Assembly (NCBI RefSeq): GCF_009831575.1
Contig: NZ_WUUT01000002.1
Coordinates: 248,001-312,000 of the forward strand
DNA from: Halovenus carboxidivorans
GTDB taxonomy: Archaea; Halobacteriota; Halobacteria; Halobacteriales; Haloarculaceae
Length of the DNA: 64,000 nucleotides
Direction of reading: 5' to 3'
Numbering within the stretch: the stretch's first letter is position 1; every line of letters starts with the position of its first letter. Below are positions 53,709-64,000 of the stretch, one piece after another. Under the pieces are notes generated by a model that worked only from the letters and a program-made list of their open reading frames with translations, searched no databases and was not told where the DNA came from. The translations under genes were made by a program, and so were the position numbers.

Positions 53709-53793
53709 GCGCGGGTAACCGAGCCAGGCCAAAGGTGCAGCGCTTAGGACGCTGTCCCGTAGGGGTCCGCCGGTTCAAATCCGGTCCCGCGCA
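53709..53793 (+). tRNA. tRNA-Leu (anticodon UAG)
   Basis: An 85-nt class II tRNA without encoded CCA. The acceptor stem GCGCGGG (53709-53715) pairs with CCCGCGC (53786-53792), followed by discriminator A. The anticodon stem CAGCG/CGCTG encloses loop CTTAGGA, giving anticodon TAG at 53745-53747. The long variable arm contains CCC/GGG. The T arm is CCGG/CCGG around TTCAAAT. It reads CUN codons and is the apparent integration target of the element that follows. Confidence 0.97.
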
Positions 53794-53849: not shown

Positions 53850-55016
53850 ATGGAACATGAGTTACCCCTGACACTCTCGCGCTGTCCAGAGATGGAGGGT
53901 GCGGAGATCGACCTTGATCGTGGTATAGTGGTAATTCCGAAATCGCATGAAGGCTGGCTTAACGACAAGCAACTCATCAACTATAGACAACACAGAGTCC
54001 AATTCCTGTCATGGCTGTGGAACGTTGGGAAGGACCCAGAGAGTGCTACCGGCTACTCAGAGTACACAGTGTACGGTAGCGCCTATCGAACCGCGCGTTT
54101 CGATAAGTGGCGCTGGGAGCATTGTGGCGGGTACTCGATGCCCCCTTCCGAGGAGGAAGCCCAGGCGTTTGTCGAGTGGCTCGCCTACGAATACGATCAA
54201 TCGGAAACAGCGAAAGGGAAGCTCCAGGAAGGGGCTATGCGCTACAACAAGTGGCTCCAGCATGAGAAGGGCTACGACGAATGGGAGTACGACTACAAGT
54301 TCGATAGCTCCGGTGGGAATCACCAGCCCCAAGACTTCCTGAGCAGAGAAGAACGCCAAAAGATCAGACAGGCGGTCCTCACTATCGGCGAAGTTCCGTC
54401 TCCAGGGAACGTGCAAGGTGAGGAACGCGAGGGTTGGCTAACACATCTCGGTCACTTGCTGAACAAACCGAGAGACGCGATTGATGATAGCGATTGGGAG
54501 GTGGTCGAAGGTTGGAAAGAGCCATCGCTTGTGAGCGTGAGCCTTGATGCTGGTCTCCGGCCCGCTGAAGTTCGAAAGGCATCTACCCAGTGGGTCGATC
54601 TACAGAATGGTGTTCTACGTATTCCGAAAGAGGACTCATCGAAGAACGTCGGAAACTGGACAGTCAGCCTGAAAGACGAAACCACGGCCTATATTGAACG
54701 CTGGCTGGATGAACGCGAACGATACGAGAGATACGAAGATACGGATGCTCTCTGGCTCACTGCTCGGGGTAATCGCTACGGGTCCAAGAGCCTACGTCGA
54801 TTACTTCACCGCCTGTGCGACGAAGCAGGAATAGAAACTGCGAACCGGAAGATGAGTTGGTACACCATCCGTCACAGTGTCGGGACGTATATGGCAAAAG
54901 AACGTGGATTAGCGGCGGCAAAAGCACAACTCCGCCATCGTAATCCGATGACGACTATGAAGTATGACCAAGTTCCAGTAGAGGATCGACGAGACGCACT
55001 CGACCGGATGGGATAA
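53850..55016 (+). CDS. int: Tyrosine-family site-specific integrase
   Basis: A 388-aa tyrosine recombinase. Catalytic residues seen are R237 (GLRPAEV), R341 in WYTIRHSVG (Y338 replaces the usual His of HxxR), H363 (LRHRNP) and the nucleophile Y372 (MTTMKYDQV). Its N-terminal part holds a SAM-like core-binding domain (AFVEWLAYEYDQSETAKGKL). The gene starts 57 nt after tRNA-Leu and is oriented away from it, the arrangement of elements integrating at tRNA 3' ends. It appears intact. Confidence 0.95.
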   Translation: MEHELPLTLSRCPEMEGAEIDLDRGIVVIPKSHEGWLNDKQLINYRQHRVQFLSWLWNVGKDPESATGYSEYTVYGSAYRTARFDKWRWEHCGGYSMPPSEEEAQAFVEWLAYEYDQSETAKGKLQEGAMRYNKWLQHEKGYDEWEYDYKFDSSGGNHQPQDFLSREERQKIRQAVLTIGEVPSPGNVQGEEREGWLTHLGHLLNKPRDAIDDSDWEVVEGWKEPSLVSVSLDAGLRPAEVRKASTQWVDLQNGVLRIPKEDSSKNVGNWTVSLKDETTAYIERWLDERERYERYEDTDALWLTARGNRYGSKSLRRLLHRLCDEAGIETANRKMSWYTIRHSVGTYMAKERGLAAAKAQLRHRNPMTTMKYDQVPVEDRRDALDRMG

Positions 55017-55783: not shown

Positions 55784-56509
55784 ATGGGAAACGATACGAA
55801 TCGGACAGACACAGGAGCACCGACAGACCAGTACGAGACGAAGGGGTCACTGAACATGTACCTGGTAGGGTCTACCCTCCAGAAAGCGATCCGGCGAGGT
55901 GACCGGGAGCTTGCGGCCTTCTCAGCGTTTGAGCTCCTTCGAAGCGGGATGGACGGATTCTTCCACTCAAGAGTGTCCACCATCCTGCTTGAGGATCTAC
56001 GTCTGCGGCCAGCAGAGGCGCACCTCCTACCAGCGATCAAGCGCCTCCAGGATATGATGAACGGCGTGTTCGAGGACAACGAAGGGATGCGGATCTCAGC
56101 AGGGATGCGAATCGCCTCGCTGATGGCGGAAGCCGAGTCGTCGAGGGAGCTACTCCCGATGAAGAACTGGTGGATCGCCCTCGCGGAAGACCGGCTGGAG
56201 GCTATCGAGAACGGTGACGTACCCGAACATAGCTTCCCAATAGACGACAAGCTGGATGAGATCGAGTACGTCGTAGCGGACCAACATACGGCTCGCGGCT
56301 CACGCGCGGGCCGAGGGACGGCACACTACCTGATCGAGGCGGCAAGGACGAGCGACCCCTCCAACCTGGAGACTCGGTACAAGCGACTGCTCTTGGAACA
56401 CGAACTCGGAAAGAACGTTTCGGATGAACAGGTAGAACACTCGATTGAACCCGTTCCAGACGACGAGCCGTGGGAGCACTCGCGGGAGGTTGGCTTCCCA
56501 AGGCACTGA
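55784..56509 (+). CDS. Element protein resembling the C-terminal domain of RarA/MgsA/WRNIP1
   Basis: A 241-aa protein, mainly helical. Residues ~22-125 (MYLVGSTLQKAIRRGDRELA, AFELLRSGMDGFFHSRVSTI, LEDLRLRPAEAH, MRIASLMAEAESSRELLPM) resemble the helical tetramerisation domain after the AAA+ module in RarA-type replication ATPases, but no Walker motifs exist here. This similarity is from pattern, not a search. A CTTATACTATTT box at 55678-55689 may be a promoter. The acidic tail contains PVPDDEPWEHS. It could contact replication machinery; otherwise unknown. Confidence 0.65.
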   Translation: MGNDTNRTDTGAPTDQYETKGSLNMYLVGSTLQKAIRRGDRELAAFSAFELLRSGMDGFFHSRVSTILLEDLRLRPAEAHLLPAIKRLQDMMNGVFEDNEGMRISAGMRIASLMAEAESSRELLPMKNWWIALAEDRLEAIENGDVPEHSFPIDDKLDEIEYVVADQHTARGSRAGRGTAHYLIEAARTSDPSNLETRYKRLLLEHELGKNVSDEQVEHSIEPVPDDEPWEHSREVGFPRH

Positions 56510-56799
56510 ATAGCTACGGGGTTGACCCCCCTCGAAATCCGCCCCACTAAAGGATGGTTGCGGCCCGCTGTCGCGTTGGAGCCACTTCTATACACACTCC
56601 ATTTTGTACGGTCGGTCGTCCCGATGACTCATACAGTCGAAACAGGATAACAAATCGAAAGGCGTGAGAGGGGTAGAGTCTGAGGAATCGATAATTACAT
56701 GGGTCGGACGGGCCGTTTGCTCTCTCACTTCCAGATCACTGCGCCGAGCCGACCTGAGCGTGAAAACTGGTATTAATAGTCCGTCCCCTTCGTACAGAT
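56510..56799. other. Non-coding stretch in the element
   Basis: 290 bp between the RarA-tail-like gene and the microprotein gene. It contains the TATA box of the microprotein and no convincing gene. An 85-codon frame starting at 56664 runs out of frame across the microprotein gene and looks non-coding. Confidence 0.6.
56771..56779 (+). promoter_or_regulatory. TATA box of the 42-aa RHH-like gene
   Basis: TATTAATAG, centred 25 bp before the ATG at 56800; gives a leaderless transcript and supports the very short gene. Confidence 0.6.
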
Positions 56800-56928
56800 A
56801 TGGATACTACCGTGAGCCTAAACGAATCCACACGGGATGCCCTCCAAGCGGTAAAAGAGGAACAGTCACTCCCGCACTACGATGCGACTGTCTCGTGGCT
56901 CATCGAGGAGGTGAACAGTAACAACTGA
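56800..56928 (+). CDS. 42-aa ribbon-helix-helix-like microprotein
   Basis: ATG 56800 to TGA 56928. The protein MDTTVSLNESTRDALQAVKE... continues with EQSLPHYDATVSWLIEEVN. This has the pattern of a minimal ribbon-helix-helix: strand TVSLNES, helix TRDALQAVKEEQ, turn, helix DATVSWLIEEV. Such proteins act as dimeric DNA-binding regulators or antitoxins. It has a good TATA box. No toxin gene is adjacent, so a plasmid copy-control or repressor role is more likely (inference). Confidence 0.65.
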   Translation: MDTTVSLNESTRDALQAVKEEQSLPHYDATVSWLIEEVNSNN

Positions 56929-56944
56929 TCGGTAGGCTGGAAGC

Positions 56945-57042
56945 CGCCGAGCATAAGGGAGGGTGCTCGGCGTTCGGAGGCCGATGGGCCAGGCCGTCCG
57001 TACTCAATTTTTGGGTCCGGATGGTCTTTGAGGTTTCGCCTC
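56945..57042. other. Hairpin-rich intergenic region, possible origin or structured RNA
   Basis: Three stems in ~100 nt. CGCCGAGCA/TGCTCGGCG (56945-56953, 56964-56972) is perfect over 9 bp. ACTCAA/TTGGGT (57002-57007, 57011-57016) is extended by TCCG/CGGA, with one G-T pair. GAGG/CCTC (57030-57033, 57039-57042) closes the series. It is GC-rich unlike the neighbouring genes and lies directly before the helicase gene (start 57092). Confidence 0.5.
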
Positions 57043-57091
57043 GAACCACGGTTGCTCCGTTCCCAGCCTGTGCTGATTAAATCTATCTACG

Positions 57092-59950
57092 ATGACTGTT
57101 CAGAGTTTCAAGAAATATCCATACGAGTGCGAGATTGCCGGAGATCTTTCACTCGTCGTTTCGGCGAAGAATGATGCCGATTGTGTGCTGTCACTCTACA
57201 AAGGCGACGAGATGGTAGCAACCAGAGAATGTGATCCAGAGTTCTTCGATCCAGATACTGGATTCGATCGTCAACAGATCCACGCTCTCGGAAAAGAACT
57301 GGCACAGTCAGCCGGTATTGGCGAAGAAACCATATTAGAAGGGTTCTCTGGCGCGATTTTTGAAGTCCAGGCGATGCGTGGCTTCCCCGGCCCCCGCCTG
57401 GCTCCTATTATCGAACACAAACACCCCGTCGCGTCATGCCCTGCTCCGGGGTGGACAGTAACGCCACTCGATCCTGCTACAAAATGGGAGGAGCTCGAAT
57501 CCCGCTTCGACGACTGGCTTGATCGCAATGACCTGGAGATTTGGGAAGACGACCCCGGCACGGGGAAAACAACCTCAGCCGCCAAAGCGGCGTCTAACTC
57601 TGACCACTCGGTCGTGTTCTATCTCCCGACTCATCGGAACTGTCAGGAATTTCTCGATGAAGACGAGATCCCGAGTGACTACTATCATCTCAAAGGCGCG
57701 GGACAACCACGACACAAGTGCTGTATGCGGGCGAAGGTGAATGAGAGCCAGTGTTCAGAACATGACGAGCCTGAAGCGATGTGTCCGATATATGATTTCC
57801 CCGAGGAGCACGAAATTCGCCGTGAATACGAGCGGTTGGAACGAGAAGTCGGCGGGATACAAGCTCACCGGGAACTGAATTTGTTTGAGAAGGACTGGCA
57901 TGGTGATGCGGTCGAGAAATCGCAGACCGATGAAGAACTCGTTGGGAAGTGCAAATGGTTAGAACAGTTCGACGAGCTTGATCGTCTCTCCCACGTTGTC
58001 ACAGTCCATGCGTATCTCGGCTTGGGACTGCTTGACGAGTTCGAGTGCCACATCATCGATGATCTCCAGAACGAGCCGAGTATCGAACGACAAGTCAGAC
58101 CGTCACACCTGGAGGAAGTGAGCGAGATATTGAACAGTCTGGCGAAAGACACACAGTCCCCCCTCAGTCCGGTATACGAAGCACTCTATCAGCTCGCCAC
58201 AGAGATCGAAAACACGTTCGTACAGCGAGGCGGATCGTTGGGGGATCTGTCTCCGGTCTCCTTCGAGATCCCACCGATTGCGAGGAGACATGAGTCATTT
58301 AATCATGACCGGCAAGTCGCGGAAGCACTCGCATGGGCAAAACGGGGCTACCTCAAAGACGTGTTCGGGAACCGAAACAACAAAAACTGGGGTCACGTTC
58401 CAACGTCGCTTGATTTTCTGCTGATGGCCGCAGGCGAAGTTGATGGTGGCGTGACGAAATCAGCGGCTCGACGAGCGATTGCCAGTTTTCGTGGGCTCAC
58501 CGACTGTCCCCGATGCGGTGAATCAGCCATTACGCGTCCGGATAGATCACCACCCGACTCAGAGCGGTCCGACATAGACCTTTCCGGACCGGAGCATCGA
58601 TGTGCCGAGTGTGGATGGGACGAGAATCAAGATCCCCTCATAACCTCGGATACGGATCAAGCCCGAGCTACCGCGTGGCTTCAGCATCCCGATACGGACT
58701 CATCTGGTACGCGCTCGTATCTTCAGTTCAGGCAACTCCGCCGACCCGACGAACTTCCTCCGCCTGAGAACACGTTGCTCTTGGACGCAACGCCAACTGT
58801 GGCGATGTACAAGCACCTCTTCGATGTCAAGGATGTCCATCAAGAAGGGACCGAGCGGATCGAGTCGAACGCAAACATCACGCAGATCGTCGATGGACAG
58901 TATCACCGAGGAACGATCTGTCAGACAGATACTGCTGGGCGAGGAAAGCGAAGACGGCAACGAATCCAGGAGTTTATCGACCGGGAGTGCGAGGAGCACG
59001 AAGGCGCGAACGAGGATGGTCCAGATGTTATTTTGGTCGGTCACCAGCGAGCCCGAGAGGAGGGATTCTTCCAGATTCCGTCTAATGCCGAGTGGATCGA
59101 CTTCTACACAGGCCGTGGTCTCGACCGAAAAAATGCCAAGGCACTAATCGTTATCGGAGCACCGTATCCGAACCCACAAGCACTCTCTCGACTCGCGGAA
59201 ATGCTGACCGTCGGCAAAGACATCGACCTCGGTAAGGTTGTCCACGATACGGACGAACAAGTCATCGATAAGATGATCCCGACCCATCGTCGCTACCTCT
59301 ACGATGACGGTGAAGGCAACGGCTATCAGGTAGAGATTAAGCCTCGGTGGGGGCTTCTCGGCGAGCTACTTGAAGATAAACGTGAGCGTGAGATTCACCA
59401 GATGCTCCATCGGATTCGACCAGTCCTCGCGGATGACCCGAAGGACATCTATCTCCTAACCAACGTCCCGATTGACGTGCCGATTACGACACTGACTACG
59501 ATGGAACAACTTCTCAGATGGCGACGAGAGGAGCCGATTACGATCCTCAGGCCCAAGGCACGGGAGATTCTGGATCTCGTCTCGGATCTATATGACTCTC
59601 CTCCTCAATCGGAACCGCTGAGCGAGCTCTGGCACATCGACGAGGAGGAGATCAAGACAACAATCAGTGACCTGTATACTCTGTACTGTGAGCGAATCGA
59701 AGCGGTGTCGGAGCAATCGATCCGAAACGGGATGAACGACCTCGAAGCGATCGGTCTTGCTGAGCAATCAAGACCAGGTCGATCCTACGTCTACACTCTT
59801 CCACGAACTCGCGTCACTCGCATCCAGACCGTCCTCGACAGATCGACTGACCTTTCACTCAAAGAGCGCCAGCAGTTACGCGCAGTCGTTCCCGAGGAAG
59901 CCGAATCAGCCGACTGGCTCACCGAAGCTCTCGATTTTGTCAACCGATAA
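57092..59950 (+). CDS. Large helicase-like ATPase with predicted Fe-S or zinc cluster (element replication protein?)
   Basis: A 952-aa protein. Walker A DPGTGKTT is at residues 154-161 and a Walker B-like HIIDDLQ has D323-D324. Between them lie C210, C211, C221 and C231, where XPD/DinG-type helicases carry their [4Fe-4S] cluster. A zinc ribbon follows (C472, C475, C504, C507). LLLDATPTV resembles motif III, and QMLHRIRPV (Q770, R774, R776) resembles motif VI of superfamily 2. A winged-helix-like C-terminus ends the protein. It probably drives replication of the element; a defence role is also possible. Confidence 0.8.
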   Translation: MTVQSFKKYPYECEIAGDLSLVVSAKNDADCVLSLYKGDEMVATRECDPEFFDPDTGFDRQQIHALGKELAQSAGIGEETILEGFSGAIFEVQAMRGFPGPRLAPIIEHKHPVASCPAPGWTVTPLDPATKWEELESRFDDWLDRNDLEIWEDDPGTGKTTSAAKAASNSDHSVVFYLPTHRNCQEFLDEDEIPSDYYHLKGAGQPRHKCCMRAKVNESQCSEHDEPEAMCPIYDFPEEHEIRREYERLEREVGGIQAHRELNLFEKDWHGDAVEKSQTDEELVGKCKWLEQFDELDRLSHVVTVHAYLGLGLLDEFECHIIDDLQNEPSIERQVRPSHLEEVSEILNSLAKDTQSPLSPVYEALYQLATEIENTFVQRGGSLGDLSPVSFEIPPIARRHESFNHDRQVAEALAWAKRGYLKDVFGNRNNKNWGHVPTSLDFLLMAAGEVDGGVTKSAARRAIASFRGLTDCPRCGESAITRPDRSPPDSERSDIDLSGPEHRCAECGWDENQDPLITSDTDQARATAWLQHPDTDSSGTRSYLQFRQLRRPDELPPPENTLLLDATPTVAMYKHLFDVKDVHQEGTERIESNANITQIVDGQYHRGTICQTDTAGRGKRRRQRIQEFIDRECEEHEGANEDGPDVILVGHQRAREEGFFQIPSNAEWIDFYTGRGLDRKNAKALIVIGAPYPNPQALSRLAEMLTVGKDIDLGKVVHDTDEQVIDKMIPTHRRYLYDDGEGNGYQVEIKPRWGLLGELLEDKREREIHQMLHRIRPVLADDPKDIYLLTNVPIDVPITTLTTMEQLLRWRREEPITILRPKAREILDLVSDLYDSPPQSEPLSELWHIDEEEIKTTISDLYTLYCERIEAVSEQSIRNGMNDLEAIGLAEQSRPGRSYVYTLPRTRVTRIQTVLDRSTDLSLKERQQLRAVVPEEAESADWLTEALDFVNR

Positions 59951-60213: not shown

Positions 60214-63200
60214 CTATTCGTCGGTGAACTCGACGCCGGTGATCTCGAATCGTGCGCCGCCTTCAGAGCCGTCGGTCACGCGAACGTCCCACCCGTGCGC
60301 TTGTGCAACCTGTTTCACGATGCTCAGCCCAAAACCGGTTCCGTCCTCCGAGGTCGAGTAGCCCGCCTCGAACACGTCGTCCCGTTCGTCTTCGGGGATG
60401 CCAGGGCCGTCGTCTTCGACGTAGAAGCCGTTGTCCAACTCTCCGACGGTTACAGTCACGTCCTTGCCACCGTGTTCGACCGCGTTCCGCATGAGGTTCT
60501 CAAGGAGTTGCCCGAGACGACTCTGGTCGGCCTGAATCCGCCGATCAGTCTCAATCATGAGTGTCGCGTGGTCAGTCGCCACGTTTTGCCAGCAATTCTT
60601 TGTGAGGAACCCCAGATTAACCGGCTCCAGGTCACCCACCTGATCCCCTTCACGGGCAAGTGTGAGGAGATCATCAATCAGGGTGTTCATTCGCTCGTGA
60701 GCACGACCGACGGCGTCGAGATGCTCGCTGTCGCACTCCTCGCGGGCCAGTTCCAATCGCCCTTCGGCAACGTTCAGCGGATTCCGGAGATCGTGAGAAA
60801 CGATACTGGCGAACTCTTCGAGCCGTTCGTTCTGACGTTCCAGATCGCTCGTTGCCTGTTTACGTTCGAGTTCGTAACTCACCAACTGACTCATGAGCCG
60901 CACGAACGTTCGCTCAGCGTCCGTGAATGGTTCATCACGTGAGCTGTCCGCGGCCAAAAAGACCGTCCCGTAGAGTTCGTCGTTGACTGTGATCTTGGTG
61001 CCGATGTAACATCCCAGATCGAATATCCCATAGGCTGGATCGTCAGCCCAGCCCGCCGCGGGTGCGTCCTGAATCTCCAGCAATCCGTCCTGGTCAATCG
61101 TTTTGCGACAGTACGACTGCGAGAGCGGGCACGAATCGCCCGGCTGTAATAGCTCGTGATCACCGCTTGCTTCGATGATCGTCTGCGTTCCGTGCTCCTG
61201 TCCGCCTCCGGGACGTTCGATGCGAGTCAGGTGCCCATAGGGGAGGTCGAGTTTTTCTGGCCCGAGTTCCAGAACCCGCGTGATTTTCTCGTCCGTGGTC
61301 AGCTCCTGATCGGTTGCGACATCGTAGAGACTCTGGAGAAATTCTATTGTCGCCGCGCGTTCCTGTTCCTGTTCTTTGCGCTCGGTGATGTCCCGATAGA
61401 TCCACAGGTGCCCCTCTCCACCAGGGAGTTCAATCGGTCGGTAACTCCGTTCGAACGTCCGACCATCTGTGAGTGCGAGTTCCTCATTGTCGGTTGACTC
61501 TCGCTTCACTACAAGCTCGTTGATCCGTGCAACGAAGTCCTCAGAATCGGTGAACATGTCACTGACCTGCTCGGCCATTTGTTCACAATCCGCGCCAATC
61601 ACCTCGTCTGGGGCACCGGGTATCTCGAACAACTCGAACAGCCGGTCGTTCACTGCGAGGACGTTCCGCGAGGCGTCTTCAGCAAGGACACCAACGGGAA
61701 GTGTCTCGAACAGCGTCGAAAGGAGCGTGTTGGCCTCTTCAAGTTCCTGCTCGCGGGCGCGAAGCTGGCCTGTCCGCTCGACTTGTTCCAGTGCCGCAGT
61801 GATGGCATCAGCCAGAATCTCGGCAAACACGACATCTTGCTGATCAAAGGCGGCGGGCGTCTCCGAGCCAGCCAGCAGGATACCATGCTCGCCAAGCGGA
61901 ACCAAGAGTTCGCTTCTGACTGGTGACTCCGGATTGTAGCGATCAGGATCGTCGTGGACATCGTCAATCGCGAGCGTCTCTCCCTGCTCGTAGACACGCC
62001 ACGCGATACTGTCACCCTCGGTAAACGTCGGAATCTCGCCGATGAGATCGCGGGTAGCGTCCGTTGCCGCGTCCGGGACGAGCGCCTCCTGGTCGTCGTA
62101 CAGGTGAATCGCGTTCGCCTCCAGTCTCAGCACGTCACGCGCCGCTTCGACGCCGATCTCGCTGATTTGCTTACGCGTATCAGCGGCAATCAGGTTGTGC
62201 ATCGTCTGGTTGAGGCCGTTGAGACGGGATTCACGCTCTCTGCGCTCGGTGATGTCCCGGAAGAGACCAACTATCCGGTCAGGCTCGTCTTCCTCCTCGA
62301 TAATGAGCCCCCGGGCCTCCGCCCAAACTGTCTCCCCCTCGTCGTTGATCATTCTGAACTCCGCATGATAGGGTTCGTCGGTTTCGATGGCTCGGTCAAT
62401 TGCCGCTTCGACCTGGGGGATGTCATCCGGATGGACGCGTTTGGCGAAGGCTTCGTATGTGCCTTCAAATGACCCGGGCTCAAGTCCAAACGCTCGTTCC
62501 AGCGTTTCGTTCCACTCGACTTCGTTAGTGCCTATTTTCCACTCCCAGATCCCCGTTTCTGTCCCCTCAAGCACGAGATCGAGTCGTCGTTTCGTCTCGC
62601 GAAGCTCCTGCTCTCGGGCTCTCAACTCGGTGAGGTCGCGGCCGATCCCGGCAATCCCGATGAGTTCTCCCTCGGAATCCGTTAACCGTCGGCTACGGAA
62701 CTGGTAGGGAATCCGGGTCCCGTCGGCTGTGCGAAGCTCGGCCTCAACCTGGTCCGTTCCAGTCTCGACAGTTGTTTCAATAGAGGCCGTAATCCGTTCG
62801 CGTTCGTCTTCGGGGAAGAAATCGAGTGCGTTCATCGCCTCAATCTCTGTCTCCGAATATCCCGTGACTTCCTCCACACGCTCGTTCCACCGCTGGAGAT
62901 CACCGTCCGGGTTGACTACATAGAAGACATCATCCAACGTATCGAGTGCCTGGGAAATGAACCTCTGCTCCGCTTCGAGTTCGTCCTGTCGTTCGCGTTG
63001 TTCCGTGACTTCGACGAAATAAAACGCGATCCCCCCATCGTCTTTCGGATAGACTTCAATGTCGAACCAGCCATCCAGTTGGGAGAAGTACTCGACGAAC
63101 GATGTCGGCTCTCTGGTTTCCATGACCTCTCGGTACTTCTCCTCGAAGCGGGTCCCTTTCGCTTCCTCGAACACGTCCCAGAAGTCCCGACCGAGGAGGT

Positions 63201-64000
63201 CATCCTCAGTCATGTCGTAGAGATCTTCAGCTTGCTCGTTGACGAGCGTGAACCGCCAATCAGCATCGACCTCGACGATTGCATCGGTCACCCGCTCGAT
63301 GATTTCCTCGCGTTTCTGTTTGAGTCGCTGTTGGTCAGTAATATCCTGAAACTGTGAGAAGACGGCGAGGACCTCGCCATCGTCGTCGGTGATGACTCGG
63401 TTGTGCCATTCACAGACGATTCGTTCGCCATCTTCTCTAACATTCTCGTTGATACTGTGATAGCCGCCCGCGTTTTCGAGCAGATCAGAGACAACGTCAC
63501 GTACCGCCGGTCGGTCAGATTCAGGAACAATAGTCTCCCATGATTCTCCAGCCAATGTCTGTTGTTCATACCCGAGAATGTCCTCAGCGGCATCGTTCAT
63601 GCGGCAGAGTTCGAAGTTGTCATTCCACTCAATGACTCCGAGAGCAGACTGCTCAAAAAACAGATTGAGCCGTTGTTCCCTCTCGGCGAGAGCGGTCTGG
63701 GTATGGTATTGTTCGACCGCATTACGGATGCGGTTTGCGAGCACCGTATACTGGCTTGTTCCACTTCCCTTCTGTAGGTAGTCCGTAACACCGGCCGAAA
63801 TGGCGTCACTGGCAATTTCCTCACTACCCTTGCCCGTATAGAGAATAAACGGTAGATCCGGATGTTCGTCCCGGACGGCTTCGAGGAACTCGATCCCGTT
63901 CTGGCCCGGCATGTCGTAGTCAGAGACGATACAGTCGAACTCGTTGTCACGGAGACGGTCCAGCCCTTCGTCAGCACTGGTGGCGGTTTCGATGACGAAC
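60214..64000 (-). CDS. Large multi-sensor histidine kinase (REC-PAS-PAS-PAS-PAS-GAF-PAS-GAF-HisKA-HATPase), N-terminus beyond window
   Basis: The frame is open to the window edge, so the start lies past 64000. The visible part begins within a receiver domain (CIVSDYDMPG with the phospho-acceptor Asp, then YTGKGSEE and DYLQKG). Three or four PAS modules (SALGVIEWN, TDAIVEVD, DDVFYVVNPDG, GIWEWK), a GAF domain, another PAS (LPVGVLAED) and a second GAF (SCPLSQSYC) follow. The kinase core has FASIVSHDLRNPLN (H box), LMRNAVEHG (N box), DDGPGIPEDE and GTGFGLSIV. It is soluble and likely integrates redox/light/metabolite cues. The receiver at the N-terminus is unusual for a hybrid kinase. Confidence 0.9.
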   Translation of the reverse strand, partial: FVIETATSADEGLDRLRDNEFDCIVSDYDMPGQNGIEFLEAVRDEHPDLPFILYTGKGSEEIASDAISAGVTDYLQKGSGTSQYTVLANRIRNAVEQYHTQTALAEREQRLNLFFEQSALGVIEWNDNFELCRMNDAAEDILGYEQQTLAGESWETIVPESDRPAVRDVVSDLLENAGGYHSINENVREDGERIVCEWHNRVITDDDGEVLAVFSQFQDITDQQRLKQKREEIIERVTDAIVEVDADWRFTLVNEQAEDLYDMTEDDLLGRDFWDVFEEAKGTRFEEKYREVMETREPTSFVEYFSQLDGWFDIEVYPKDDGGIAFYFVEVTEQRERQDELEAEQRFISQALDTLDDVFYVVNPDGDLQRWNERVEEVTGYSETEIEAMNALDFFPEDERERITASIETTVETGTDQVEAELRTADGTRIPYQFRSRRLTDSEGELIGIAGIGRDLTELRAREQELRETKRRLDLVLEGTETGIWEWKIGTNEVEWNETLERAFGLEPGSFEGTYEAFAKRVHPDDIPQVEAAIDRAIETDEPYHAEFRMINDEGETVWAEARGLIIEEEDEPDRIVGLFRDITERRERESRLNGLNQTMHNLIAADTRKQISEIGVEAARDVLRLEANAIHLYDDQEALVPDAATDATRDLIGEIPTFTEGDSIAWRVYEQGETLAIDDVHDDPDRYNPESPVRSELLVPLGEHGILLAGSETPAAFDQQDVVFAEILADAITAALEQVERTGQLRAREQELEEANTLLSTLFETLPVGVLAEDASRNVLAVNDRLFELFEIPGAPDEVIGADCEQMAEQVSDMFTDSEDFVARINELVVKRESTDNEELALTDGRTFERSYRPIELPGGEGHLWIYRDITERKEQEQERAATIEFLQSLYDVATDQELTTDEKITRVLELGPEKLDLPYGHLTRIERPGGGQEHGTQTIIEASGDHELLQPGDSCPLSQSYCRKTIDQDGLLEIQDAPAAGWADDPAYGIFDLGCYIGTKITVNDELYGTVFLAADSSRDEPFTDAERTFVRLMSQLVSYELERKQATSDLERQNERLEEFASIVSHDLRNPLNVAEGRLELAREECDSEHLDAVGRAHERMNTLIDDLLTLAREGDQVGDLEPVNLGFLTKNCWQNVATDHATLMIETDRRIQADQSRLGQLLENLMRNAVEHGGKDVTVTVGELDNGFYVEDDGPGIPEDERDDVFEAGYSTSEDGTGFGLSIVKQVAQAHGWDVRVTDGSEGGARFEITGVEFTDE

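Follow-up and report, generated by a model that had tools for sequence, protein, structure and literature searches.

To our knowledge, the characterised XPD/DinG helicases act in repair, transcription or CRISPR interference, and no description of an XPD/DinG-like helicase fused to a primase was found in the open-access papers searched. Primase-SF2 helicase fusions in mobile elements are already known as such, with All3500-family primases joined to UL9-like SF2 helicases (PMC5862659). Primase-less variants have likewise been described in a different archaeal family, the arCOG07809 integrative elements, which combine a primase, a helicase, an HTH and a Zn finger (PMC4158269). The minimal replicon of pRN1 consists of a small repressor gene, a replication protein and a required downstream stem-loop (PMC4234260).

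The locus compared here with these systems lies in a stretch of 64,000 nucleotides from Halovenus carboxidivorans (contig NZ_WUUT01000002.1, positions 248,001 to 312,000), hereafter called the window. We propose, with a probability of about 0.7, that a 28-kb integrative element has as its replication protein the product of an intact open reading frame of 952 codons in this window. The protein would be both initiator and helicase, an SF2 enzyme from a branch beside XPD/DinG whose metal centre is held by cysteines. The All3500 fusions share with its family the pairing, within mobile elements, of a primase-polymerase with a remote SF2 helicase; they are set apart by description, their helicase being UL9-like and not XPD-like (PMC5862659). 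The arCOG07809 elements show the same kind of architecture and also primase loss in small integrated elements (PMC4158269). Membership in that group was rejected at the helicase level: the fuselloviral ASV1 protein C674, cited in the same paper, shows no relation to the window family (profile-profile P 0.098, no match with hmmsearch). A RepH-type haloarchaeal replication protein, considered as a lead and looked for in the literature only, was set aside.

The helicase gene sits in a 28.1-kb integrated element bounded by 52-bp tRNA-Leu repeats. The surrounding stretch is low in GC (~0.55 versus ~0.65 outside) and starts in the tRNA-Leu gene; the second repeat copy follows 28.1 kb downstream, beyond the window, and there the GC content is back at the host level. 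Further genes of the element encode a histidine-kinase-like protein, a SWIM-finger protein, a NucS-like nuclease, an Eco57I-type methylase and a PLD-SNF2 helicase. Neither virion genes nor further recognised replication genes were seen among its annotated ORFs. Homologues of the 241-aa ORF adjoin primase-less helicases in the elements of Halosimplex aquaticum (L048) and Halolamina rubra (L049/L020). By eye this ORF had looked like the RarA C-terminal region, an assignment that was dropped for want of a PF12002 match. A large PAS/GAF histidine kinase with a receiver domain is encoded inside the element at 60214-63912 on the minus strand. The PLD-SNF2 helicase and the Eco57I-type methylase belong to the same element outside the window (L035:1450-4902; L034:17311 onward) and are probably a restriction or defence cassette.

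Table 1. Features of the helicase gene and its surroundings (window coordinates; residues refer to the 952-aa protein)
Feature	Position	Strand	Basis
attL, 52-bp repeat, 3' part of tRNA-Leu	53742..53793	+	repeated outside the window, at a position equivalent to 81872-81923
Tyrosine integrase of the element	53850..55016	+	PF00589, E 3e-18; homologues in L048, L078, L079
Conserved 241-aa ORF, same element	55784..56509	+	phrog_16866 match
Promoter-like stretch, AAAACTGGTATTAATAG	56762..56779	+	also upstream in L048 and L078
Small ORF, 42 aa	56800..56928	+	upstream of all four primase-less helicases
Hairpin GCCGAGCA-N9-10-TGCTCGGC, between small ORF and helicase	56946..56971	+	identical stem in the four primase-less elements
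Primase-less XPD/DinG-like helicase, 952 aa, probable replication protein of the element	57092..59950	+	open frame, relatives, AF2 model and PDB fold match
N-terminal domain, ~95 residues, four strands and two helices	57092..57376	+	model secondary structure
Motif I / Walker A, PGTGKT, residues 154-160	57551..57571	+	G156, G158, K159 conserved
Cysteine cluster C210, C211, C221, C231, between P-loop and D323-D324	57719..57784	+	alignment of relatives
C287, aligned with XPD Cys4	57950..57952	+	19/20 relatives; profile-profile alignment
Motif II / Walker B, D323-D324	58058..58063	+	DD in primase-less clade, DE elsewhere
Zinc ribbon C472/C475/C504/C507, inside motif II-III insertion	58505..58612	+	invariant in 23/23 homologues
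Motif III-like LDAT, residues 564-567	58781..58792	+	invariant or nearly invariant
Motif V, GRGLDRKNAKALIVIGAPY, residues 674-692	59111..59167	+	conserved motif comparison
Motif VI, QMLHRIRP, residues 770-777	59399..59422	+	conserved motif comparison
Winged-helix region near the C-terminus, residues 858-901	59663..59794	+	model and weak matches in relatives
Candidate origin stem-loop with 11-bp stem and 54-nt loop	60067..60142	+	longer than 20/20 shuffles

An earlier note on this DNA had read the product as a helicase-like ATPase whose four cysteines are placed as in the iron-sulfur helicases XPD and DinG, and had expected a pair of RecA domains. Structure prediction, the fold match in the PDB and the conservation of the cysteines support an SF2 helicase of XPD/DinG-like type in which the cysteines cluster between motifs I and II. 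The AlphaFold2 model is of moderate confidence (pLDDT 72.7). In the PDB fold search its best 18 matches were all XPD, DinG or CasDinG (E 5e-11 to 3e-5; TM-scores 0.27-0.35 by query and 0.32-0.55 by target), followed by a drop to SecA. The model thus predicts a pair of RecA-like motor domains folded as in XPD/DinG. A profile-profile comparison with haloarchaeal XPD/DinG over motifs I-II gave P = 5e-6, against 0.014-0.57 for control comparisons; with single haloarchaeal XPD/DinG subgroups the match was weaker (best 1.7e-4) or absent. As had been supposed, the family libraries do not recognise the 952-aa protein: Pfam, PHROGs and NCBIfam yielded no significant match, and the XPD/DinG profiles DEAD_2 and Helicase_C_2 remained unmatched in Pfam and NCBIfam.

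Along the chain, motif I (P-loop G156 to K159) is followed by the cysteines, motif II, an insertion of ~240 mostly helical residues, motifs III, V and VI and the winged helix. In the model the insertion lies between motifs II and III, where XPD/DinG proteins have their Arch, but it contains the zinc ribbon, which is real, as the earlier note had held. The family thus resembles XPD/Rad3-DinG, including CasDinG, in its predicted fold, its motif order, the cysteines between motifs I and II, the large, mostly helical motif II-III insertion and a QxxxRxxR-like motif VI. It differs from them in the unmatched Pfam domains and in motif II, which reads DExP in most relatives and DDxx in a clade without primase, whereas a DEAH box is absent. 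Further differences are five conserved cysteines with another spacing, a zinc ribbon within the insertion, a C-terminal winged helix and the fusion of relatives to primases. The best reading of model and alignments is an XPD/DinG-like SF2 helicase of an unnamed branch beside XPD/DinG. Since neither the DEAH box nor a match to the family sequence profiles was found, we use the term XPD/DinG-like and stop short of assigning the protein to the family. The fuselloviral helicase C559 falls within XPD/DinG proper (P 3e-21) and outside the family of the window protein.

Both ends of the protein are unlike XPD, in agreement with the earlier note. The predicted secondary structure near the C-terminus (H858-868, H874-886, E890-894, E897-901) is consistent with the winged helix suggested there, and relatives show weak HTH, Cdc6_C and MCM_C matches in this region. 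The DD Walker B had been taken for a degenerate motif. It is not confined to one isolated protein: the whole primase-less clade of four has it, the remaining family members have DE, and on this alignment it is a trait of the clade rather than decay. ATP hydrolysis could therefore be altered in these proteins.

About 30 homologues were found, on haloarchaeal chromosomes, on one plasmid (from Halococcus dombrowskii) and on halovirus contigs. A search of 391 haloarchaeal genomes gave relatives in 13 (12 besides the window genome) with ~31-40% identity. Alignment-based searches added 12 viral contigs and 12 loci in named genomes, some of which coincide with loci of the first search; the genera include Halosimplex, Halolamina, Halorussus, Natrialba, Haloarcula and Halococcus. 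The single window protein as query gave no match in the search for related loci, and alignment queries succeeded. Terminase and portal genes lie near the helicase in two of the viral contigs examined. That this gene type is carried by haloarchaeal mobile elements, as had been proposed, is borne out by the element borders, the plasmid and the halovirus contigs.

Most relatives are 1170-1520 aa long and their extra N-terminus is a primase-polymerase. Its profile matches the solved NrS-1 primase (7rr3/6a9w) with E = 2e-15, its model matches NrS-1 structures in Foldseek with E = 1e-11, and it shares the DxD, SGxGxH and EIY motifs of the NrS-1-type phage enzymes. NrS-1 and P4-type proteins differ in having a helicase of another superfamily, and the window protein lacks the NrS-1-type domain. 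At three loci a PF09250 Prim-Pol replaces the NrS-1-type domain; these loci fall on two separated branches of the helicase tree, once among the near-identical helicases L024, L025 and L026. Both primase types occur on closely related helicases, which makes the primase an interchangeable module.

The window protein forms a primase-less clade (support 100/99) with the proteins of Halosimplex aquaticum (L048), Halolamina rubra (L020/L049) and L078; two other relatives without primase, L042 and L043, lie outside this clade. An AEP catalytic domain is absent from the window protein, in which the N-terminal domain of ~95 residues takes the place of the primase-polymerase. The Halosimplex aquaticum protein begins with a domain that looks similar by eye; phmmer gave no match between the two. 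No primase gene was detected in the window element or within ~10 kb around the helicase of the other three clade members. The window element therefore could not prime itself through a recognised enzyme, and with the primase lost from the clade, priming probably falls to the host primase. Such swapping and loss of primases bears on how mobile elements assemble their replisomes. In two relatives (L023 and L027) the N-terminus is divergent, shows a DxD as well as a GGGSYVYGPP motif and may be a further type of primase; both genes have long-range stem-loops of 12-13 bp on their downstream side.

The order of parts around the helicase gene resembles that of the pRN1 ORF904 replicon, where a small ORF is followed by a replication protein with a C-terminal winged helix and then by a downstream stem-loop (PMC4234260). 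The sister proteins of the window helicase, which carry an N-terminal primase, also resemble ORF904 itself, a PrimPol-helicase-winged helix protein accompanied by the orf56 repressor (PMC4234260). In contrast to ORF904 the helicase is XPD-like SF2 and not SF3, the primase is missing in the window clade, and an extra invariant hairpin stands between small ORF and helicase. The 42-aa ORF is conserved among the four primase-less elements (phmmer E 3e-24 to 1e-13); by eye it resembles a CopG-like ribbon-helix-helix protein, and a Pfam match was not found. The 8-bp stem of the hairpin is identical in all four elements without any compensatory change, which points to recognition of its sequence and not of its structure alone; the motif is absent elsewhere in the loci compared. 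The hairpin is a candidate protein-binding site or origin element. As a whole, the upstream region (56510-57091) is not unusually structured (z -0.55), and the short hairpin alone is conserved. Downstream, stems of 11-14 bp are present in three of the four primase-less elements, each longer than in 20/20 shuffles. The homologous stems of Halolamina rubra (L020/L049) and Halosimplex aquaticum keep their pairing through changes on both sides. No such stem-loop was found in L078, and most primase-bearing relatives have nothing comparable.

The 952-aa frame contains C210, C211, C221 and C231 between motifs I and II exactly as first described, but only three of them come close to the expected invariance in homologues. 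In a tally of 30 sequences, from which L032 and L133 were left out, every relative has C211 and C221 (30/30 each), and C231 is kept in 29/30. C210 occurs in just five and is therefore not one of four equivalent family cysteines. Another family cysteine, located between C221 and C231, is found in 25 of the 30; C210 is confined to the sequences without this third family cysteine (5/5, against 0/25 of those with it), namely the window protein, L048, L045, L031 and L019. One or the other is thus present in every sequence. On the tree the exchange needs three changes, at least two of them forced by well-supported branches; with only two independent pairs it is not significant by sign test. The pattern is consistent with four metal ligands being kept and suggests that position 210 can substitute for a missing ligand. 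This repeated cysteine exchange amounts to a natural experiment on the geometry of metal ligands. C287, missed by the earlier note, is kept in 19 of the 20 relatives having a residue there; it is lost in L054 and in L045, which lacks two family cysteines. C231 was at first mapped to XPD Cys4 because of its CPxY context; after profile alignment it was tentatively replaced by C287. By inspection, cysteines are also found at the same place in more remote members, L133-L135 from plasmids of alphaproteobacteria and L138 from a different archaeon of the phylum.

From these observations a course of replication can be sketched. The helicase presumably descends from primase-helicase fusions. Its winged helix, by analogy with pRN1 ORF904, would bind the element origin, for which either the upstream invariant hairpin or the downstream stem-loop is a candidate. 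Opening of the DNA would fall to the XPD-like motor, which would load on single strands and split the duplex with its cysteine-ligated domain, and in most relatives the N-terminal primase-polymerase would make the primers. The product of the small ORF may serve as a copy-number or transcription repressor. For the window helicase we infer iron, unwinding, origin binding, regulation and host priming alike. Since an XPD/DinG-like motor is joined to interchangeable primases in plasmid and virus relatives, it seems that mobile DNA has taken over a repair-type motor for its own copying. We see about an even chance for the wider proposal of a distinct XPD/DinG-like iron-sulfur family that provides the replicative helicase of haloarchaeal plasmids, integrative elements and viruses, with exchangeable primases and with a primase-less sub-clade that replicates from a hairpin or stem-loop origin by host priming. 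Distantly related proteins would extend this family to alphaproteobacterial plasmids and to at least one further archaeon of that phylum. If true, a family that joins the XPD/DinG motor to primases and travels on viruses and plasmids would make this motor a replicative helicase, and haloarchaeal genetics would gain a testable replicon.

The proposed cysteine-bound metal centre between motifs I and II would most likely be a [4Fe-4S] cluster. The same cysteines could instead bind zinc, in a structural zinc site or knuckle, which would be compatible with a role in replication. We regard zinc as a rather doubtful assignment, although the compact spacing C-x9-C-x~8-C-x3-C, a conserved His adjoining the second Cys (H224) and the presence of a genuine zinc ribbon in another part of the protein favour it. 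The location between motifs I and II is that of the XPD/DinG cluster, and C287 aligns with XPD Cys4. Moreover, L133, L134, L135 and L138 read as four cysteines, the last one closely before a Tyr, as in XPD/DinG.

For the function of the gene, the earlier note had left a replicative and a defence type side by side. Replication is the more probable role, given the primase fusions, the halovirus and plasmid carriers and the replicon-like flanks. The main alternative is an accessory helicase of DinG-like type acting in repair or recombination, in a clade that no longer replicates its element and leaves the copying of the integrated DNA to the host machinery. Loss of the primase together with the clade-wide change from E to D at Walker B would fit such a protein, as would the mostly repair-related XPD/DinG enzymes and an integrated element in which no other recognised replication gene was found. 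We nevertheless consider it unlikely, since the replicon-like flanks are conserved specifically with the primase-less clade, the protein retains its winged helix and every motor motif, and the sister proteins are primase fusions. Far less probable is a defence helicase with CasDinG-like nucleic-acid interference. Its trace in PADLOC is a weak typeIV_DinG match (E = 0.009), accompanied by CasDinG structures among the fold matches and by the PLD-SNF2 helicase and Eco57I-type methylase elsewhere in the element. However, cas genes were not seen among the annotated ORFs of the element, the conserved partners are the integrase, the small ORF and the 241-aa ORF, and the relatives bear primases.

Two further groups of proteins came to light beside the family. 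L139 and L140, haloarchaeal proteins of 644 aa, show a distant helicase match together with a C...C..CPY pattern and may represent another related family. On an 8.9-kb plasmid of Halorientalis litorea, L136:1938-5969 encodes a closely similar NrS-1-type primase joined to another helicase-like module and a MarR-type winged helix. This fusion is the only large protein of the plasmid, has a small ORF directly upstream and is likely the plasmid's replication protein.
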